Shown: positions 3,599 to 53,598 of the stretch, piece by piece | Position numbering within the stretch: the first letter of the stretch is position 1 | How the letters are laid out: each line of letters opens with the position of its first letter | Made by a program: the position numbers and the translations under genes | Origin: Magnetococcales bacterium WMHbinv6 | Lineage (GTDB): Bacteria; Pseudomonadota; Magnetococcia; Magnetococcales; Magnetaquicoccaceae | Direction: 5' to 3' | Length of the DNA stretch: 64,000 nt | NCBI GenBank assembly: GCA_002753135.1 | Contig: PDZV01000004.1 | Coordinates: 1-64,000 of the forward strand | Notes under the pieces: model-generated | What the model saw: only the letters and a program-made list of their open reading frames with translations | The model's database searches: none | Told to the model about the DNA's origin: nothing

Positions 3599-3614
3599 GG
3601 TTTCACGTGAAACT
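3599..3614. promoter_or_regulatory. parS centromere-like site
   Basis: The 14-bp core GTTTCACGTGAAAC at 3600-3613 is a perfect palindrome identical to the core of the conserved chromosomal parS site (consensus TGTTTCACGTGAAACA); only the two outermost bases differ. It lies between mnmG and mnmE, genes that flank parAB and parS near many bacterial origins. ParB is expected to nucleate here. parA and parB are not in the window. Confidence 0.85.
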
Positions 3615-25746: not shown

Positions 25747-27951
25747 GTGTTTGCCCAAGTCGCGCTGCCGATTCCTCTCCGCTCACTGTTGACCTACTCT
25801 TTGCCGGCACCGCTCACGGCCACCCCTGGCACCCTGGTCCTGGTGCCGCTTGGGCAAACCCGGCAGGTCGGTGTCCTGTGGCAACTGTGCGAACAGCCCG
25901 CCTGGGAGGGAAACATCCGCCCCATTCTCGATGTTCTGGAAGAGCGCCCCCTGCTCAACGATGAGTTGCGCTACCTGTTGGCGTGGATGGCCAACTATTA
26001 TCTCTGCCCCATCGGTTCGATCATCGCTGCGGCCATGCCGGGCCATCTGCGCTTTGCAAAACGGCGACGCCTTGTCTGGAATGCGCTGCCAATTCCGGAT
26101 ACCCTTCCCGCCGCTTTGCTGCCGCTGGCCCAACGTCTGCAACAAAAAGGGGGGTTGGCCGAAGAGACCCTGGCCAAGCAGTGGTCGCGCCACACCTTGA
26201 AACAACAATTGCAACAACTGCAACAACTGGGTCTGATCCAGGTACAGGAGAGCTGGCATGGCAGACAGGAGGTTGCCAGCGCTGCCGTTGCTGCAACACC
26301 CCCTGTTGTCAACACAACGCCGCCCACCCTGACCGCAGAGCAGGCCCGGCAAGCCGTGCTGATCGAAGAGGCGTTGCAACAGCGTCGCTTTCAACCGTTT
26401 CTGCTGCACGGTATCACCGGCAGCGGCAAAACCGAACTCTATCTGCGTGCCGTCGCCCAGTGTCTGGCTCAACAGCGGCAAGCGCTGCTGCTGGTCCCGG
26501 AAATTGCCTTGACCCCGCAACTGATCCAACGTTACCAGGAGCGCTTTCAGGGCGGATTGGCCGTGTTTCACTCCCGTCTGAGTGAAACGCAACGCTTTGC
26601 CTATTGGCAACAGATTCGCGACGGACGGGCACAGGTGGTGATCGGTGCCCGCAGCGCCATCTTTGCCCCTTTTGCCGATCTCGGTCTGCTGGTGGTCGAT
26701 GAGGAGCATGATGGCTCCTACAAACAAGAAGGCAGCGTGCCCTACCAGGGACGTGACATGGCGGTGGTGCGGGCCCGTCGGGCGCAAGCGGTGTTGATTC
26801 TCGGCAGCGCCACCCCATCGCTGGAATCGTTGGCCAACGCCCAGCAAGGTCGCTATACCCTGTTGAGCCTGACACAACGGGCAACCGGTGCCTCTCTGCC
26901 ATCGATTGAAATGATTCCGACCGCAGAGGCCATCCGGCAACAACAGATGCGCTTTACCGATCTGTTGACCCCTGCCTTGCGTCAGGCCCTGCAAGAGACC
27001 CTGGCTGCCGGACAGCAAGCCTTGCTTTTTCTCAACCGGCGCGGTTTTGCCCCCTCTTTGTTGTGTCGTCGCTGCGGCCATGCCATCTCCTGCCCGCATT
27101 GCTCGGTCTCTTTGACCATGCACAAAGCCAAGCGGTTGTTGATCTGCCACTACTGTGATTACCGCCGCACCGTTTGTGATGTCTGTCCGTCATGCGGCCA
27201 ATTGAGTCTCTTTGCCTTTGGTCCGGGCACCGAACGGTTGGAAGAGGAGTTGACCGCCTTTCTCCCGGAGGCACGCATCGCCCGTCTGGATCGAGATACG
27301 GTTGCTTCCGGTCAGGTCGATCCGGAGCAGATTTTGACCGCCTTTCGCGATGGCAAGCTGGATGTGCTGCTGGGAACGCAAATGATTGCCAAAGGACACC
27401 ATTTTCCCGGCTTGACCCTGGTGGGGGTGGTACAGGCGGAGACCACCCTTTGTCAACCGGATTTTCGCGCGGCGGAACGCACCTTTCAACTGCTGACCCA
27501 GGTGGCCGGACGGGCCGGGCGGGAGGAGGGGAGTCCGGGACGGGTGTTGGTGCAAAGTTTTGATCCGGGTCACTACGCCCTGCAGGCGGTGCTGAATCAG
27601 GATGTGACCGCTTTTCTCAACACCGAGATGAACTATCGGCAGGAGGTGGGCTATCCCCCTTTTCTGCGCCTGGCCCTGCTGCGCATCTCCTCCCCCTCAC
27701 AGCAGGCAGGAGAAATGTTCGTGCGCACACTCAAAGCACAACTGCCAACTGACCAGCGGATCCAGTTGCTCGGCCCGGCACCGGCACCGCTGTTTAAATT
27801 GCGTAACCGCTATCGCTGGCAGCTGCTGATCAAGGAGCAACAGGCCAAACAACTGCATCCTGCCCTGCACGATCTGCTCCCCCTGGTCCACTCACTGGCC
27901 AGCCACTCCTTGCGTCTGGATTGGGATGTGGATCCCTACTCCTTTGTTTGA
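25747..27951 (+). CDS. priA: Primosomal protein N' (replication restart helicase PriA)
   Basis: 3'-5' superfamily 2 helicase that reloads DnaB at stalled forks. The 734-residue chain has the 3'-DNA-binding domain at the start (AQVALPIPLRSLLTYSLP), Walker A GITGSGKTE (about 222-230), the DEEH box in VVDEEHDGSYKQ, GSATPSLES, and the zinc-binding cysteines in CRRCGHAISCPHCS and CHYCDY...CPSCG. GTG start. It ends 13 nt before the end of the convergent ccmE. With dnaB it forms a small replication cluster. Confidence 0.97.
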   Translation: MFAQVALPIPLRSLLTYSLPAPLTATPGTLVLVPLGQTRQVGVLWQLCEQPAWEGNIRPILDVLEERPLLNDELRYLLAWMANYYLCPIGSIIAAAMPGHLRFAKRRRLVWNALPIPDTLPAALLPLAQRLQQKGGLAEETLAKQWSRHTLKQQLQQLQQLGLIQVQESWHGRQEVASAAVAATPPVVNTTPPTLTAEQARQAVLIEEALQQRRFQPFLLHGITGSGKTELYLRAVAQCLAQQRQALLLVPEIALTPQLIQRYQERFQGGLAVFHSRLSETQRFAYWQQIRDGRAQVVIGARSAIFAPFADLGLLVVDEEHDGSYKQEGSVPYQGRDMAVVRARRAQAVLILGSATPSLESLANAQQGRYTLLSLTQRATGASLPSIEMIPTAEAIRQQQMRFTDLLTPALRQALQETLAAGQQALLFLNRRGFAPSLLCRRCGHAISCPHCSVSLTMHKAKRLLICHYCDYRRTVCDVCPSCGQLSLFAFGPGTERLEEELTAFLPEARIARLDRDTVASGQVDPEQILTAFRDGKLDVLLGTQMIAKGHHFPGLTLVGVVQAETTLCQPDFRAAERTFQLLTQVAGRAGREEGSPGRVLVQSFDPGHYALQAVLNQDVTAFLNTEMNYRQEVGYPPFLRLALLRISSPSQQAGEMFVRTLKAQLPTDQRIQLLGPAPAPLFKLRNRYRWQLLIKEQQAKQLHPALHDLLPLVHSLASHSLRLDWDVDPYSFV

Positions 27952-47120: not shown

Positions 47121-47855
47121 TTATTTCTCCTGCGTCGCCACAGCCGGGCCGTTTTGCAACCAGATACAGGCTCCAGAATCACGTTGTATACGCTGTAAAA
47201 ACAGCTTATGCGCCTCTTGCTCCTGCTCTGATACAGGCCAATGGCGTATGGGCAGGGCCGTTGCGGCCGGCATCGGCACGATGCTCTCGTTGCTTGCCCC
47301 TTCGTTGCCAGCTGATGGGGATGTGGTTAATTGCAGTGTGAGTTGACCCCCACCGGTCAGCTCCAGGTATACCGAAGCCAACAAATCGGCATCCAACAGG
47401 GCCCCATGCAAGGTGCGATGGCTGTTGTCAATTTTCAGCCGTCGGCACAAGGCATCCAGGGAGGCGGAAAGTCCTGGAAATTTACGGCGTGCCATGCCGA
47501 TGGTATCGATCACCCGGCTCATGGCCAACGGAGGACGTTGTAATCGTTCCAGTTCAGCATTGATAAAACCGATGTCGAAGGAGGCGTTGTGAATCACCAG
47601 GGTATCGTCACCGATAAACGCCAAAAAAGAGTCGACCAGATCGGCAAAACGGGGCGCGTTGGCCACTTTTTCTTGTGTAATACCGTGAATGCGCGTCGCT
47701 TCGGCGGGAATATCCCGCTCTGGATTGACCAGGGTATGAAACTGTTTGCCCCGACGGCTCTGCCATAATTCAATGCAACCGATTTCGACAATCCGATCCC
47801 CCGTCGCAGGATTGAGTCCGGTGGTTTCTGTATCGAGAACAATAAGGCGCTTCAT
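47121..47855 (-). CDS. dnaQ: DNA polymerase III epsilon subunit (3'-5' proofreading exonuclease)
   Basis: DEDDh exonuclease that proofreads replication. From ATG 47855 it has 244 residues: Exo I LDTETTG (about 6-12), Exo II VIHNASFDIGFINAEL (about 95-110), and Exo III HGALLDADLLA (about 150-160). The C-terminal 60 residues form a Gly/Ser/Ala linker and a final helix that would bind the polymerase alpha subunit. Its ATG overlaps the hemY stop (ATGA). The reading frame open upstream to 47990 lies inside hemY and is not used. Confidence 0.95.
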   Translation of the reverse strand: MKRLIVLDTETTGLNPATGDRIVEIGCIELWQSRRGKQFHTLVNPERDIPAEATRIHGITQEKVANAPRFADLVDSFLAFIGDDTLVIHNASFDIGFINAELERLQRPPLAMSRVIDTIGMARRKFPGLSASLDALCRRLKIDNSHRTLHGALLDADLLASVYLELTGGGQLTLQLTTSPSAGNEGASNESIVPMPAATALPIRHWPVSEQEQEAHKLFLQRIQRDSGACIWLQNGPAVATQEK

Positions 47856-49327
47856 GATGCTGGCTCGGCAGGATGGGAAATTGGCTGAGAGGAGGAGGGC
47901 AACACAGGACCAGAGGATTGTTTGCCGGAGGGAAGTGTCTGCCAGGTAGCGGCAATCCGTTCGGCAAGCTCTTCTCCGTTGCGCACGCAATCGGCCACCG
48001 AAATACCATCACGCCAATTGGCGCGCAGATACAGACCGGCAAAGCGTGCCAAATCGTTATCCACCTGTTCCACCCGTTGCAGGTGACCCATGGTGTATTG
48101 GGGAATGGCGGCATTGTAGCGGGTCAAATAGACAAAATCGGCTGGCGGCGAAACCCCCAGTGCGGATGCCACATCCTTTTCCACTTGTTGGATCAGGGTT
48201 GCATCTTGTTGTTGCACCAGATCGGGACGGGTGGCACCACCGATGAAGGAGGTCAACAACACCTGCCCTTCCGGGGCACGATCGCCGAACAGCGTGCTGG
48301 AAAAAAGGGTACCCAACAAGGGAACCTGTTCCCGTCGTGGAATGAGAAAGCCGAAGCCGTCCAAGGGGTGATGCACTTGCCCGCGGGCATAACCCAATGC
48401 CACGCTGGCAATCGGTGCATAGGGAATGGTGCGCAGAGCGGCAACCGCCCCCTTGGCAAAGGGAGCAATCAGCTGTGCCGCAGCAGCAGCCGGTACGGCC
48501 AAGACCACTGCTTTGGCCAACATTTTTTCTGTTTTTCCAGCCACCCGGCCATCCGGCAGGACGTTGACACCATAAACCTGCCAACCGCTGCCTTGGCGGT
48601 TAGGTACCAGACTCAATACCTTGAAACGGGTGCGCACAATGTTGGCTGTCAACTGCTGCGCAATCTGGGCGGGAAGGGTTCCCATCCCTTCTGCAAAAGA
48701 GATCATCCGCCCTTTCGGCATGCCGGCCCCTTTGCTCAAGCGTCCCTGCTGCAACGCCCCCCGTATCAACGAGCCATGATCCCGTTCCAAGGCATAAATT
48801 TTGGCCACCGCTGCCCGTACCGAAAGCTGTTCCGGATCGCCGGCATAGACACCGGAAATAAAAGGGTCGATCACATACTGCAGAAACTCTTCGCCCAAGC
48901 GGCGGCGGACAAATTGGGCGATGCTCTCTTCCTGGTCGGCAGGGGAGAGAAAGGGTTCCATGAACAGCCGCAGTTTGGCCCGCCAACTAAAAAAAGGAGA
49001 GAGAAAAAAGGCGGGAGGTGAAGCGGGTAAAGGTTTGAGTTGCCCATCACGCAAAATGTAGCGGCGGGCGGCAGCAGGATTGGCGACTCGTACCTGATCA
49101 TCCAGCTGCAGCTGCCCGATCAAGCGCCCCAGGGCGTCGTCAGGATGACCCGGCTTTTGCAAGGTGGAGTTGGGGCCATGTTCCACCCGGTAGCCCTGCT
49201 GGAAGGAAGTTGCGATGGCACCACCCGGTTGAGTGCGCGCCTCCAACACGCGCACCGGAATGTTGCGGGCATGCAGAAACCATGCAACTGACAGCCCGGA
49301 AATACCGCCGCCAATGACAATGACCAC
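47852..49327 (-). CDS. hemY: Protoporphyrinogen oxidase, HemY type
   Basis: FAD enzyme oxidising protoporphyrinogen IX (or coproporphyrinogen III in some lineages) to the porphyrin. The 491-residue protein opens with the dinucleotide motif VIVIGGGISGLSVAWFL and GGAIATSFQQGYRVEHGPNS in outline, and has the PPOX-like VIDPFISGVYAGDPEQLSVRAA segment and a C-terminal FAD-contact region (GLYLRANWRDGISVADCVRNGEELAE). This oxygen-dependent type is less usual in proteobacteria than HemG or HemJ. Placed between hemN and dnaQ. Confidence 0.92.
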   Translation of the reverse strand: MVIVIGGGISGLSVAWFLHARNIPVRVLEARTQPGGAIATSFQQGYRVEHGPNSTLQKPGHPDDALGRLIGQLQLDDQVRVANPAAARRYILRDGQLKPLPASPPAFFLSPFFSWRAKLRLFMEPFLSPADQEESIAQFVRRRLGEEFLQYVIDPFISGVYAGDPEQLSVRAAVAKIYALERDHGSLIRGALQQGRLSKGAGMPKGRMISFAEGMGTLPAQIAQQLTANIVRTRFKVLSLVPNRQGSGWQVYGVNVLPDGRVAGKTEKMLAKAVVLAVPAAAAAQLIAPFAKGAVAALRTIPYAPIASVALGYARGQVHHPLDGFGFLIPRREQVPLLGTLFSSTLFGDRAPEGQVLLTSFIGGATRPDLVQQQDATLIQQVEKDVASALGVSPPADFVYLTRYNAAIPQYTMGHLQRVEQVDNDLARFAGLYLRANWRDGISVADCVRNGEELAERIAATWQTLPSGKQSSGPVLPSSSQPISHPAEPAS

Positions 49328-49420: not shown

Positions 49421-50830
49421 TCAAATCGTTTTGGAAAAACTCTTTTTCTGTTGAGCGTTGCGCAAATACCAATCAAATACCATGCAAATATTGCGAATCA
49501 GCAAGCGGCCTGCCGGTTTTACCCGCAAAATTTCTCCTTCTTCTTCCAATAATCCCTCTTCGATCATTCGTTGCATGTCGGACATTTCCGACTGAAAAGT
49601 GTCAGCAAAAGACAAATGGAAACGCCGTTCTATTGCCGCCCGATCCAACTGGAAATCACAGATCAGGCGCATGATCACCTCCCGACGGATCAGATCATCC
49701 TCATTGAGAAGCAGGCCACGAAAAACTGCCAACTCGCCTTGGTCAACCCGTTGATAATAGGGTTCCACCTCTTTTTCGTTCTGGGCATAGATGCGACCGA
49801 TTTGACTGATCGAGCTGCTGCCCATGCCGATCAGATCGCAATCGCCATGGGTGGTATATCCTTGAAAATTGCGGTGCAGTATCCCCTGGCGTATCGCAAC
49901 GGCCAACTCATCATTCGGTTTGGCGAAATGATCCATGCCAATATACAGATAACCGGCATCGGTCAAAAAGCGGATCGTGCTTTCCAGAATGCGCAGTTTT
50001 TCTTCCGGTGCTGGCAGTTGTTGCGGATCAACCCGACGTTGTGGCATGAAATATTGCGGCAGATGGGCATAATTGAACACTGCCAGACGATCCGGATCCA
50101 AGGTTTCCACCACCTGTTGCAAAGTTTGCAGAAAGGAACGTTCACTCTGCAAGGGCAAACCGTAGATCAAATCCAGATTGATGGAGGGAAAACCGGCTGC
50201 CCGTGCTTCCTCCACCACCCGACGATTCAATGCCAGCGGCTGCACACGATTGACCGCCTTTTGTACCGCCGGGTCCAGATCCTGTACCCCGATGGAAAGA
50301 CGATTGAAGCCCAGTTGACGCAAACGGCTGATTGAACCGACCGGCATTTCTCGTGGATCCACTTCGATGCCATACTCTCCCTCCTGGTCATCGACCAGAC
50401 GGAAATGGTGGTGCAAGGCATCCATCAGTTGGTGCAATTGGTCGCTTTCCAGATAGGTTGGGGTGCCTCCACCCAGATGCAGCTGCAATACCGGTCGCTG
50501 CCGACCAAACAATTCACCCTGTAACGCCACCTCCCGGAGCAAGGATTGCAGATAACGGGCGGCCCGACTGCGATCAGGAGTGACAATTTTGTTGCAGGCA
50601 CAGTAGTAACATACGGTGTCACAAAAAGGAATATGCACATACAGCGAAAGAGGACGTTGTGGCTCTTCTGCGGCTGTGCGCAACACTTCATCACGAAATT
50701 CCCGTACTCCGAACGCTTCATGCAGATGGGGGGCCGTCGGATAGGAGGTATAACGTGGACCGGACTGATTATAACGCTCGATCAACTGCCGATCGAACAA
50801 TACCTGCTGTGTTGCCTGCTGCGCGTTCAT
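49421..50830 (-). CDS. hemN: Oxygen-independent coproporphyrinogen III oxidase
   Basis: Radical SAM enzyme that decarboxylates two propionates of coproporphyrinogen III. The [4Fe-4S] cysteines appear in PFCDTVCYYCACN (CxxxCxxC) after the YVHIPF lead, followed by GGGTPTYLE and, further on, a HemN-type C-terminal domain (IGMGSSSISQIG, MRLICDFQLD). 469 residues, the length of true HemN rather than HemW. Starts 1 nt past the hemE stop. Confidence 0.96.
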   Translation of the reverse strand: MNAQQATQQVLFDRQLIERYNQSGPRYTSYPTAPHLHEAFGVREFRDEVLRTAAEEPQRPLSLYVHIPFCDTVCYYCACNKIVTPDRSRAARYLQSLLREVALQGELFGRQRPVLQLHLGGGTPTYLESDQLHQLMDALHHHFRLVDDQEGEYGIEVDPREMPVGSISRLRQLGFNRLSIGVQDLDPAVQKAVNRVQPLALNRRVVEEARAAGFPSINLDLIYGLPLQSERSFLQTLQQVVETLDPDRLAVFNYAHLPQYFMPQRRVDPQQLPAPEEKLRILESTIRFLTDAGYLYIGMDHFAKPNDELAVAIRQGILHRNFQGYTTHGDCDLIGMGSSSISQIGRIYAQNEKEVEPYYQRVDQGELAVFRGLLLNEDDLIRREVIMRLICDFQLDRAAIERRFHLSFADTFQSEMSDMQRMIEEGLLEEEGEILRVKPAGRLLIRNICMVFDWYLRNAQQKKSFSKTI

Positions 50831-50831
50831 C

Positions 50832-51920
50832 TTATTCCTCTCCTGCCTGGCGGTACCGAAGCAACAAACGGCTCTCTTCCTGTACCGCTGTTACCAAATC
50901 GGCAATGCGGCTTGGATCCATATCCTGAGCCACCCCATGGCCCAGGTTGAAAATATGACCTGGCTCTGTACCAAAATCCCGCAACAAGCGGCCAACCTGC
51001 ATGCGGATAATTTCCGGCGATGCATACAAAACCGCCGGATCCAAATTGCCTTGCAAAGCAACCCGCCCGGCGGCCCGGTGCCGGGCCGATGCCGCATCGG
51101 TTGTCCAATCCAGACCGATCACATCACATCCCGTACCAATCATCTCCTCCAACAAACTGCCGCACCCTTTGGCAAACAAAATGATGGGAACCTTTTGACC
51201 ATCTGGTCCAACCCGATGCAAGCGGTCAACAATCCTTTGAATGCTGCGCAGAGAAAAAGCGACAAATTCCCGTGGTCCCAACACCCCTCCCCAGGTGTCA
51301 AAAATTTGAACAGCTTGTACGCCATGGGCAATCTGGGCGTTGAGATAATCGACCACTACGTCGCTGATTTGATCGAGCAACTGCTGCAACAAGGCGGGCT
51401 GATCAAAAAGCATCCCTTTGATATAGCGAAATGTTTTGCTTGATCCTCCTTCGATCATATAGGTTGCCAGAGTCCAGGGCGAGCCAGAAAAACCAATCAA
51501 AGGTATTTTGCCATTCAGAGCCTGACGAATTTGGACAACCGTTTGCAACACATAGCCTAACCGTTCTTCTGGATCAACCGGACGCAGGCAGCGCAAATCG
51601 GCTGGAGTACGTAAAACAGGTTCCAAAACGGGACCTTCTCCTGTCTCAAAGAAGAGGGTCATACCCATCGCTTCCGGGACAACCAAAATGTCGGAAAATA
51701 AAATGGCCGCATCCATGTTGAATCGGTACACCGGTTGCAGGGTAACTTCCGTGGCCAGGTCAGGATTTTTGCACAGGGTCAAAAAATCACCGGCTTGTTG
51801 GCGGACACGCATATATTCTGGCAAATAACGGCCTGCCTGGCGCATCAACCAGACAGGGGTCTGATCGACCGGTAGGGAGTGACAGGCACGCAAAAAGCGG
51901 TGAGTGGGTTCAATTGGCAT
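50832..51920 (-). CDS. hemE: Uroporphyrinogen decarboxylase
   Basis: Decarboxylates uroporphyrinogen III to coproporphyrinogen III. The 362-residue barrel protein has both PROSITE-type signatures: PVWLMRQAGRYLPEYM at the N-terminus and IGFSGSPWTLATYMIEGG near residues 140-158. It is the first gene of a heme run leading leftwards, and its upstream region is the proposed origin, the same neighbour relation as in Caulobacter, where hemE promoters border the chromosomal origin. Confidence 0.97.
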   Translation of the reverse strand: MPIEPTHRFLRACHSLPVDQTPVWLMRQAGRYLPEYMRVRQQAGDFLTLCKNPDLATEVTLQPVYRFNMDAAILFSDILVVPEAMGMTLFFETGEGPVLEPVLRTPADLRCLRPVDPEERLGYVLQTVVQIRQALNGKIPLIGFSGSPWTLATYMIEGGSSKTFRYIKGMLFDQPALLQQLLDQISDVVVDYLNAQIAHGVQAVQIFDTWGGVLGPREFVAFSLRSIQRIVDRLHRVGPDGQKVPIILFAKGCGSLLEEMIGTGCDVIGLDWTTDAASARHRAAGRVALQGNLDPAVLYASPEIIRMQVGRLLRDFGTEPGHIFNLGHGVAQDMDPSRIADLVTAVQEESRLLLRYRQAGEE

Positions 51921-51934
51921 GGGTGAGTTCCTGT

Positions 51935-52237
51935 TGATGGAACGATCGCCTGTGGTCAGGGGTCGTGCCGGTTGCTGTTTTTGTTGCTGTTTCTGTTTTA
52001 TTGTAAAATATAAAAATCTGTAATCGTTGCAGCCTGTGGAAAAGTGGATAACCTGCCCTAACGATAAGGTTATCGATACGTTTTTTCGTCGCTGGCCGCT
52101 GTGGAAAAGTTGTGGTTATTTCGTGCATGAAAAGCGCGGGCAGCTCTGTTGCCTGGCGCAGCACTCTTTTTTCCACAATTCATCAACGATTCGTCAACAC
52201 CTTATCCACAGCAGCCTGTGGATAAAGTTGGGTCGGC
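51935..52237. other. Probable chromosomal replication origin (oriC)
   Basis: Noncoding stretch of about 300 bp between hemE and an unknown gene. Two perfect DnaA boxes form an inverted pair: TTATCCACA at 52202-52210 and TGTGGATAA at 52217-52225. Four boxes with one mismatch follow consensus TTATNCACA in either orientation: 52035-52043, 52043-52051, 52100-52108 and 52169-52177; a weaker one is at 52111-52119. An AT-rich tract (about 51980-52025, with TTTTATTGTAAAATATAAAA) could be the unwinding element. CGATAA-GG-TTATCG at 52062-52075 is an additional palindrome. Genes on both sides point away from it. Confidence 0.88.
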
Positions 52238-53380
52238 TTAAAGTTCAGATTTAACCTCTCCCAGTGGCTTTGTTTCTATCTCCAAAACCGGACGACGATA
52301 GACCAGCGAACATCCGATTCGAGCTGTTTGTCCATGATGGACAGGAACCAACACTTCATCCTTGAGACGAATCCATTTTTCTCTGGGGTTGAGCGTGCGA
52401 ACCGGTTGATCGGCAGGAGTCGGACGGCTGGCTTCCGTATGTTCAAAGCGGGCCCGCAGGATGGCAACCGTTGTGCCATCTGGACCATAAAATAAAAAAT
52501 CCTTGAGAATATCAACCGGCCAGTTTTTGCTGGCAGTGGTCAGTTGCTCCATCAATTCGGCATCCACTTTCAGCAATAAATATTGTTCGATCTGAATCTC
52601 TTCGCTGCTGTCAGAGGTGGTGAGAAAAGTCAGACGACGGGTCTGCTGTGAAGAGATGAAGACCGTTGCCGGAATTTTTTTCCAGGCCAACAACTGCGCC
52701 GCCAGGGCAGCCGCACAACGACGACCGGAAGCGTTGTGGTAGAAATTGAAATATTCAAAAAATTTTTTTTCCAATACATCAACATACTCTTCACCACGTT
52801 CGTAGAGAGAGTGTTCGATATAGTTGAGATACACAGCCAATCCACGAATGGCATTATCCAGCAGTCGTTCCACTTTGACATGAAAGTGGGTCATTTCAAA
52901 CGGCCAGGATTCATCATCTTCAATGCGCTGTACCAGCAGGGCATAATCAAGCGGCAACAACATTTTCAGCAGCGAACTGAATTTTTCGTGATTGGTATGG
53001 CGCATGGACCATTTGTATTGGTTCATCTCGGCCAGATCCGGTGCCACTTCCAGGAGATTTTCCTTGTACAAACGGTTACCTTCGCGAAAACGAAAATTTT
53101 TGCGCATCTTTTCCGGAATGGTGCCGTTGACCAAAATGACCAGGGCGCTGTTTTGCAGTTCAAACTCTTTGGCGTTGGTCGGCGTACCAGGGCGCAATTT
53201 GCTGGGCGAAACAAAAGGGTAGGGGACACCGCGCGCGTTGAAATTGCGATAAGAATCGAGCAAAGTATATTCAAGCAGGGTCCGGGCTATTTTTTCCCGG
53301 GAAAACAGATACGGATCCTGCCGATTCTGCAGCAGAATTTTTTGATCCGGCATGATGAGAGAACAGGAATCCTTGGTCAT
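52238..53380 (-). CDS. Hypothetical protein next to oriC
   Basis: 380 residues from ATG 53380 (an AAAGG stretch lies about 11 nt upstream); a TTG at 53425 is the alternative. Soluble, mixed alpha/beta by eye, no signal peptide after the ATG start and no membrane helix. Notable pieces: FSREKIARTLLEYTLLDSYR, RNFRFREGNRLYKENLL-like basic segment, a helical middle with NAIRGLAVYLNYIEHSLYERG, and a C-terminal part ending RPVLEIETKPLGE. It may carry a PilZ-like strand region near the end (EKWIRLKDEVLVPVHHGQTARIG), but this is weak. I do not recognise the family. Its stop lies within 15 nt of the DnaA boxes, so its 3' end borders the origin. Confidence 0.7.
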   Translation of the reverse strand: MTKDSCSLIMPDQKILLQNRQDPYLFSREKIARTLLEYTLLDSYRNFNARGVPYPFVSPSKLRPGTPTNAKEFELQNSALVILVNGTIPEKMRKNFRFREGNRLYKENLLEVAPDLAEMNQYKWSMRHTNHEKFSSLLKMLLPLDYALLVQRIEDDESWPFEMTHFHVKVERLLDNAIRGLAVYLNYIEHSLYERGEEYVDVLEKKFFEYFNFYHNASGRRCAAALAAQLLAWKKIPATVFISSQQTRRLTFLTTSDSSEEIQIEQYLLLKVDAELMEQLTTASKNWPVDILKDFLFYGPDGTTVAILRARFEHTEASRPTPADQPVRTLNPREKWIRLKDEVLVPVHHGQTARIGCSLVYRRPVLEIETKPLGEVKSEL

Positions 53381-53598
53381 GGGCGGATTCGACCTTTCGA
53401 CTTCAACTGCATTGGCGACAAGCAAAAAAACAGCACCGCAAACCGACGGACCAATTGCTTATTGCAGCAGGTCTCAAGGTCACTGAACCATATTTCCTCT
53501 GATTGTTGCAAGGTTTTTTAACAATCTGTCGCTGTATCGGCCAGCAAAAAAAGGATGGGGATACCGCATTGTCAAAGGATGTATGATGATTGCGTCTG

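Follow-up and report, generated by a model that had tools for sequence, protein, structure and literature searches.

A putative chromosomal origin beside hemE in the Magnetococcales

The hemE locus and its DnaA boxes

In this work we looked at a window of 64,000 nucleotides (G000:C11:1-64000) from the Magnetococcales bacterium WMHbinv6, whose nearest named relative is Candidatus Magnetaquicoccus inordinatus. The window lies within a 133,630-bp contig, C11, of a 3.84-Mb assembly in 80 contigs. In it, a noncoding gap of 317 bp (51921-52237) separates hemE from an ORF of no recognised family. hemE (50832-51920, minus strand) encodes uroporphyrinogen decarboxylase and matches TIGR01464 with 429 bits as well as PF01208; beyond it lie hemN (49421-50830, minus strand; TIGR00538) and dnaQ, for the DNA polymerase III epsilon subunit (47121-47990, minus strand; TIGR01406). 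The coding strand switches within 1.5 kb of the locus. The order hemE, hemN, hemG-like gene and dnaQ, heading away from the putative origin, is common to the window genome and to G037, a Magnetococcales genome in a single 4,719,581-bp contig that we take to be the closed chromosome of Magnetococcus marinus MC-1. In MC-1 the dnaQ homologue stands on the hemE side as well, and the far side from hemE holds Nif3-, aroE-, prepilin peptidase- and coaE-like ORFs, which were identified by reading their translations; aroE and coaE are presumably found near the Caulobacter origin too. In one relative hemE is split into two overlapping frames (G039:C21:611797-612842), by a sequencing error or by a real frameshift.

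The family-less gene on the other side (52238-53425, minus strand) encodes a 395 aa protein without a match in Pfam, NCBIfam or PDB profiles, and a fold search with its low-confidence AlphaFold model (pLDDT 62) gave no confident match. In the scan done, all of its relatives came from Magnetococcales; those in Candidatus Magnetaquicoccus inordinatus UR-1 (88%) and in MAG YD0425bin7 (83%), both of which belong to the class Magnetococcia in the NCBI taxonomy, were closest. Its homologue is a conserved neighbour that adjoins hemE in most families (f1, f2, f6, f7, f9, f11 and f13; in f6 in one member and inverted). COG1806 (PF03618) was absent from all 48 genomes of the order in a profile search that detected its three controls.

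The gap contains six DnaA boxes and an AT-rich tract. Two perfect boxes (TTATCCACA) form an inverted pair with 6 bp between the arms, the outer, first arm at 52217-52225 on the minus strand and the second at 52202-52210 on the plus strand. A third box, with one mismatch (TTTTCCACA), is located 48 bases from the first arm (52169-52177, plus strand), and the same variant recurs at 52100-52108 on the minus strand. Towards hemE, two further one-mismatch boxes on the minus strand, which start at 52035 and 52043, are offset by 8 bases (TTATCCACTTTTCCACA, 52035-52051) and adjoin the AT-rich tract (51971-52034), a likely duplex-unwinding element between these tandem boxes and hemE. Here, 50-bp windows with starts between 51971 and 52001 have 68-74% AT. 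A sequence-only reading of this DNA had described the inverted pair, the four one-mismatch boxes and an AT-rich tract in about 300 noncoding bases, with hemE as one neighbour as in Caulobacter and Rickettsia, a gene other than the Caulobacter neighbour on the opposite side, and dnaA at a distance. All of these are borne out by our analysis, dnaA being found on a separate contig of the same assembly (C24:11752-13068).

Such a cluster is far above chance. Its weighted box-cluster score is 8 within 200 bp. By comparison, 60 Markov-shuffled versions of the 64-kb window and 5000 shuffled versions of the local sequence all scored 3 or less, and no other cluster on C11 scores above 2. The 24-bp inverted pair is found nowhere else in the 3.84-Mb assembly. 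Among the 40 perfect boxes of the assembly just three pairs are no more than 150 bp apart, the other two being C46:147840/147955 and C66:50651/50663.

Conservation and GC skew

The inverted pair and the third box align in six members of the genus, and the 8-bp-offset tandem boxes beside the T-rich run of the tract in five of these six. Besides the window genome, G020, G021, G022 and G023 have the tandem offset boxes, and G038 and G004 have similar ones. The spacing of the array, with one box in plus orientation at 0 and two in minus orientation at 15 and at 48 or 49, is kept in the six genus members, in G001 (f2), in G013 (f7) and in G038 and MC-1 (f13); it was found in none of 158 control segments. 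Over the order, boxes lie upstream of hemE at 21 of 30 hemE loci; the cluster is missing there in f14 (six loci read, L029-L034), f5 (G007), f10 (G016), f6 and f11. At the dnaA loci of the window genome and 29 relatives no box cluster was found (0/30). The sequence-only reading had named a richer cluster beside dnaA as a sign against its origin. None was found at these 30 loci; a richer cluster does exist in relatives, 3' of mtaB, and no skew minimum accompanies it.

The cumulative GC skew on C11, read over 124 kb, falls before and rises after a minimum at 51,675, inside hemE, and the keto-skew minimum over the same stretch is at 51,715. The DnaA boxes are at most 0.6 kb from either minimum, and the GC-skew minimum is 0.25-0.55 kb off the putative origin. 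In MC-1 the skew was sampled as 54 stretches of 20 kb and shows two arms: 29 of the 30 samples from 20 kb to 2.35 Mb are positive and 22 of the 23 beyond are negative, with a maximum near 2.36 Mb. Over a contiguous 180 kb around zero, the local minimum of MC-1 is at 25,761, about 1 kb from the boxes on its hemE side (26,711-26,892). At dnaA (~0 kb) the cumulative skew exceeds that at hemE by just ~160 counts. The MC-1 skew alone therefore cannot separate dnaA from hemE; it points to the region of 0-26 kb, and it is the boxes that single out hemE. From the keto skew, the MC-1 origin could not be resolved over the stretch covered. The minimum predicted by the sequence-only reading for the whole chromosome is thus seen on the C11 stretch and in closed MC-1, the skew of the window genome itself resting on 124 kb of a draft genome and not on the full chromosome. 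Near hemE the skew also switches sign in G030, which belongs to the same family and another genus; its minimum is at 56.2 kb and its boxes are at 62.1-62.2 kb. In G008 (L194-L201) and G018 (L217-L221) the skew minima are nearer to dnaA than to hemE.

A parS-like site (GGTTTCACGTGAAACT, 3599-3614) lies in the gap between mnmG and mnmE, 48 kb from the hemE boxes. In MC-1, parS (TGTTTCACGTGAAACA) and a second copy are both located in the mnmG-mnmE gap, ~31 kb from the hemE boxes. Another contig of the window genome, C46, carries parB and a parS match better than the one in the window, and is expected to be origin-proximal.

The origin reading and its alternatives

The boxes are far above chance, the skew minimum is at the locus, the box geometry is kept, the dnaA loci lack a box cluster and a parS-like site is found; the best explanation is that the 317-bp gap which separates hemE from the family-less gene is very probably the chromosomal oriC. 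A chromosomal origin beside hemE, as the sequence-only reading had proposed, is supported in particular by the skew minima of C11 and MC-1 together with the lack of a box cluster at the dnaA loci. In a mechanism that fits these data, DnaA would first occupy an anchor, the fixed +0/-15/-48 array made up of the inverted high-affinity pair and the third box. The anchor would nucleate a DnaA oligomer that grows toward hemE, across the box at 52100, to the tandem boxes at 52035-52051. From these, the presumed unwinding end, the oligomer would open the AT-rich tract at about 51971-52034; the helicase would then be loaded at the opened tract and two forks would leave, so that the site would fire in vivo.

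One other option is that the cluster is a DnaA-controlled hemE promoter or a DnaA titration site, with the origin at another place such as the vicinity of dnaA on C24 or of parB on C46. DnaA boxes just upstream of ndk in the genus speak for it, since they indicate that non-origin box clusters exist in Magnetococcales, and so does the presence of parB on C46. Yet the skew minimum of C11 is at hemE, C24 is one-signed over the 40 kb around a box-free dnaA, and the pair on C46 shows no minus-to-plus change of skew in the surrounding 20 kb. Moreover, a promoter gives no reason why an AT-rich tract is present, why the box geometry is fixed or why the coding strand switches, and we regard this option as unlikely. 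Even less probable is a bipartite origin, or one lying a few kb off, of which the hemE cluster would be just the high-affinity part. The 6 kb between skew minimum and boxes in G030 would fit such an arrangement, as would a perfect box pair that MC-1 has at 23.6-23.8 kb too, but on C11 the boxes and both skew minima are no more than 0.6 kb apart, and no other cluster on this contig scores above 2. Four candidates for the origin were rejected: a site beside dnaA because no boxes are there, the C46 pair because the surrounding skew runs from plus to minus, the ndk cluster on C66, which has one-signed skew and a promoter position, and the mtaB cluster because the skew is one-signed on both of its sides in MC-1, G030, G040 and G039.

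The mtaB cluster is best seen in MC-1, where 10 DnaA boxes, six of them perfect, occupy ~300 bp directly 3' of mtaB (G037:C1, 1,197,362-1,197,654; L124:17362-17654), face a convergent gene and are located at 50% of the right arm. Boxes lie 3' of mtaB at 23 of 30 mtaB loci (L144-L173), with a varying and mostly convergent downstream gene; they are missing in the four members of the window genus that were read. The one-signed skew and the mid-arm, convergent position argue against an origin and a promoter and for a role like that of datA or DARS, and we propose the cluster as a candidate locus of this kind. It resembles datA/DARS of E. coli (PMC4585315) as a noncoding DnaA-box cluster off the origin, mid-arm in MC-1, while no sequence relation is claimed.

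The ndk boxes are found just before the gene in all seven genus members, as a tandem perfect pair in six of them. In the window genome they lie at G000:C66:50560-50671 (L211:10560-10671). Boxes upstream of ndk, mostly as a tandem pair 12 bp apart, were also observed in f6, f8 and f10; the ndk loci with boxes are L231-L237, L245, L252, L253, L255, L256 and L260. Through such boxes DnaA could possibly control nucleotide supply. In G007 (f5; L257, ~977-1388 in ndk orientation) eight or nine boxes, including an 8-bp-offset pair, lie upstream of ndk, and hemE is box-free; this cluster is possibly a candidate for a relocated origin. In a tentative picture, which we take to be somewhat less likely than not, Magnetococcales may combine the hemE origin with a dedicated non-origin locus at mtaB, which would set DnaA activity as datA/DARS do; the window genus would have lost the mtaB locus and would carry tandem boxes before ndk instead.

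Relation to known origins

The Cori of Caulobacter crescentus and the oriC of Rickettsia prowazekii are flanked by hemE and COG1806/DUF299 (PMC1914354). The window locus is like them in the adjacent hemE, the DnaA boxes, the AT-rich region and the location of dnaA elsewhere, and unlike them in its other flank, a family-less gene seen only in Magnetococcales, an order in which all 48 genomes searched lack COG1806. It also differs from them in having no CtrA site by the full consensus TTAA-N7-TTAA, and a strict IHF scan (WATCAANNNNTTR) of the hemE-side origin region gave no match. The region has one GANTC site, and Magnetococcales are reported to be without a CcrM homologue (PMC3973325); therefore a control by CtrA and CcrM in the style of Caulobacter is not supported. 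In Wolbachia, Ehrlichia and Anaplasma the origins are flanked by COG1253 and hemE, the Wolbachia type being without COG1806 (PMC1914354). The COG1806 flank thus varies within hemE-type origins and we do not treat it as defining. As in these bacteria, the window locus has retained hemE and exchanged the other neighbour, whereas profile searches give no relation between its replacement gene and COG1253, a CBS-domain family.

The basal unwinding system consists of DnaA boxes, a spacer and DnaA-trios (PMC8287927). The Magnetococcales loci resemble it in the tandem boxes beside the AT-rich tract and in trio runs after the unwinding-end box, found in G023 (GAT-GAT-AAA-GAT) and G004 and in shorter form in MC-1 and G038. 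The window origin differs from it, having no clear trio run at spacers of 0-13 bp with at least three trios required within 16 bp of a box.

Our search of an open-access library, with subscription papers and DoriC outside it, gave no published origin for MC-1, and as far as the searched papers show a hemE-type origin is new for the Magnetococcales lineage. By our reading a hemE-side origin is present in the Magnetococcia, the lineage that branches deepest near the Alphaproteobacteria. The linkage of hemE and origin would then predate the alphaproteobacterial split, and CtrA sites and the COG1806 flank would not be universal to such origins. For magnetotactic cocci, this gives an anchor for the origin and a candidate replicating fragment, together with a conserved second DnaA-box locus.
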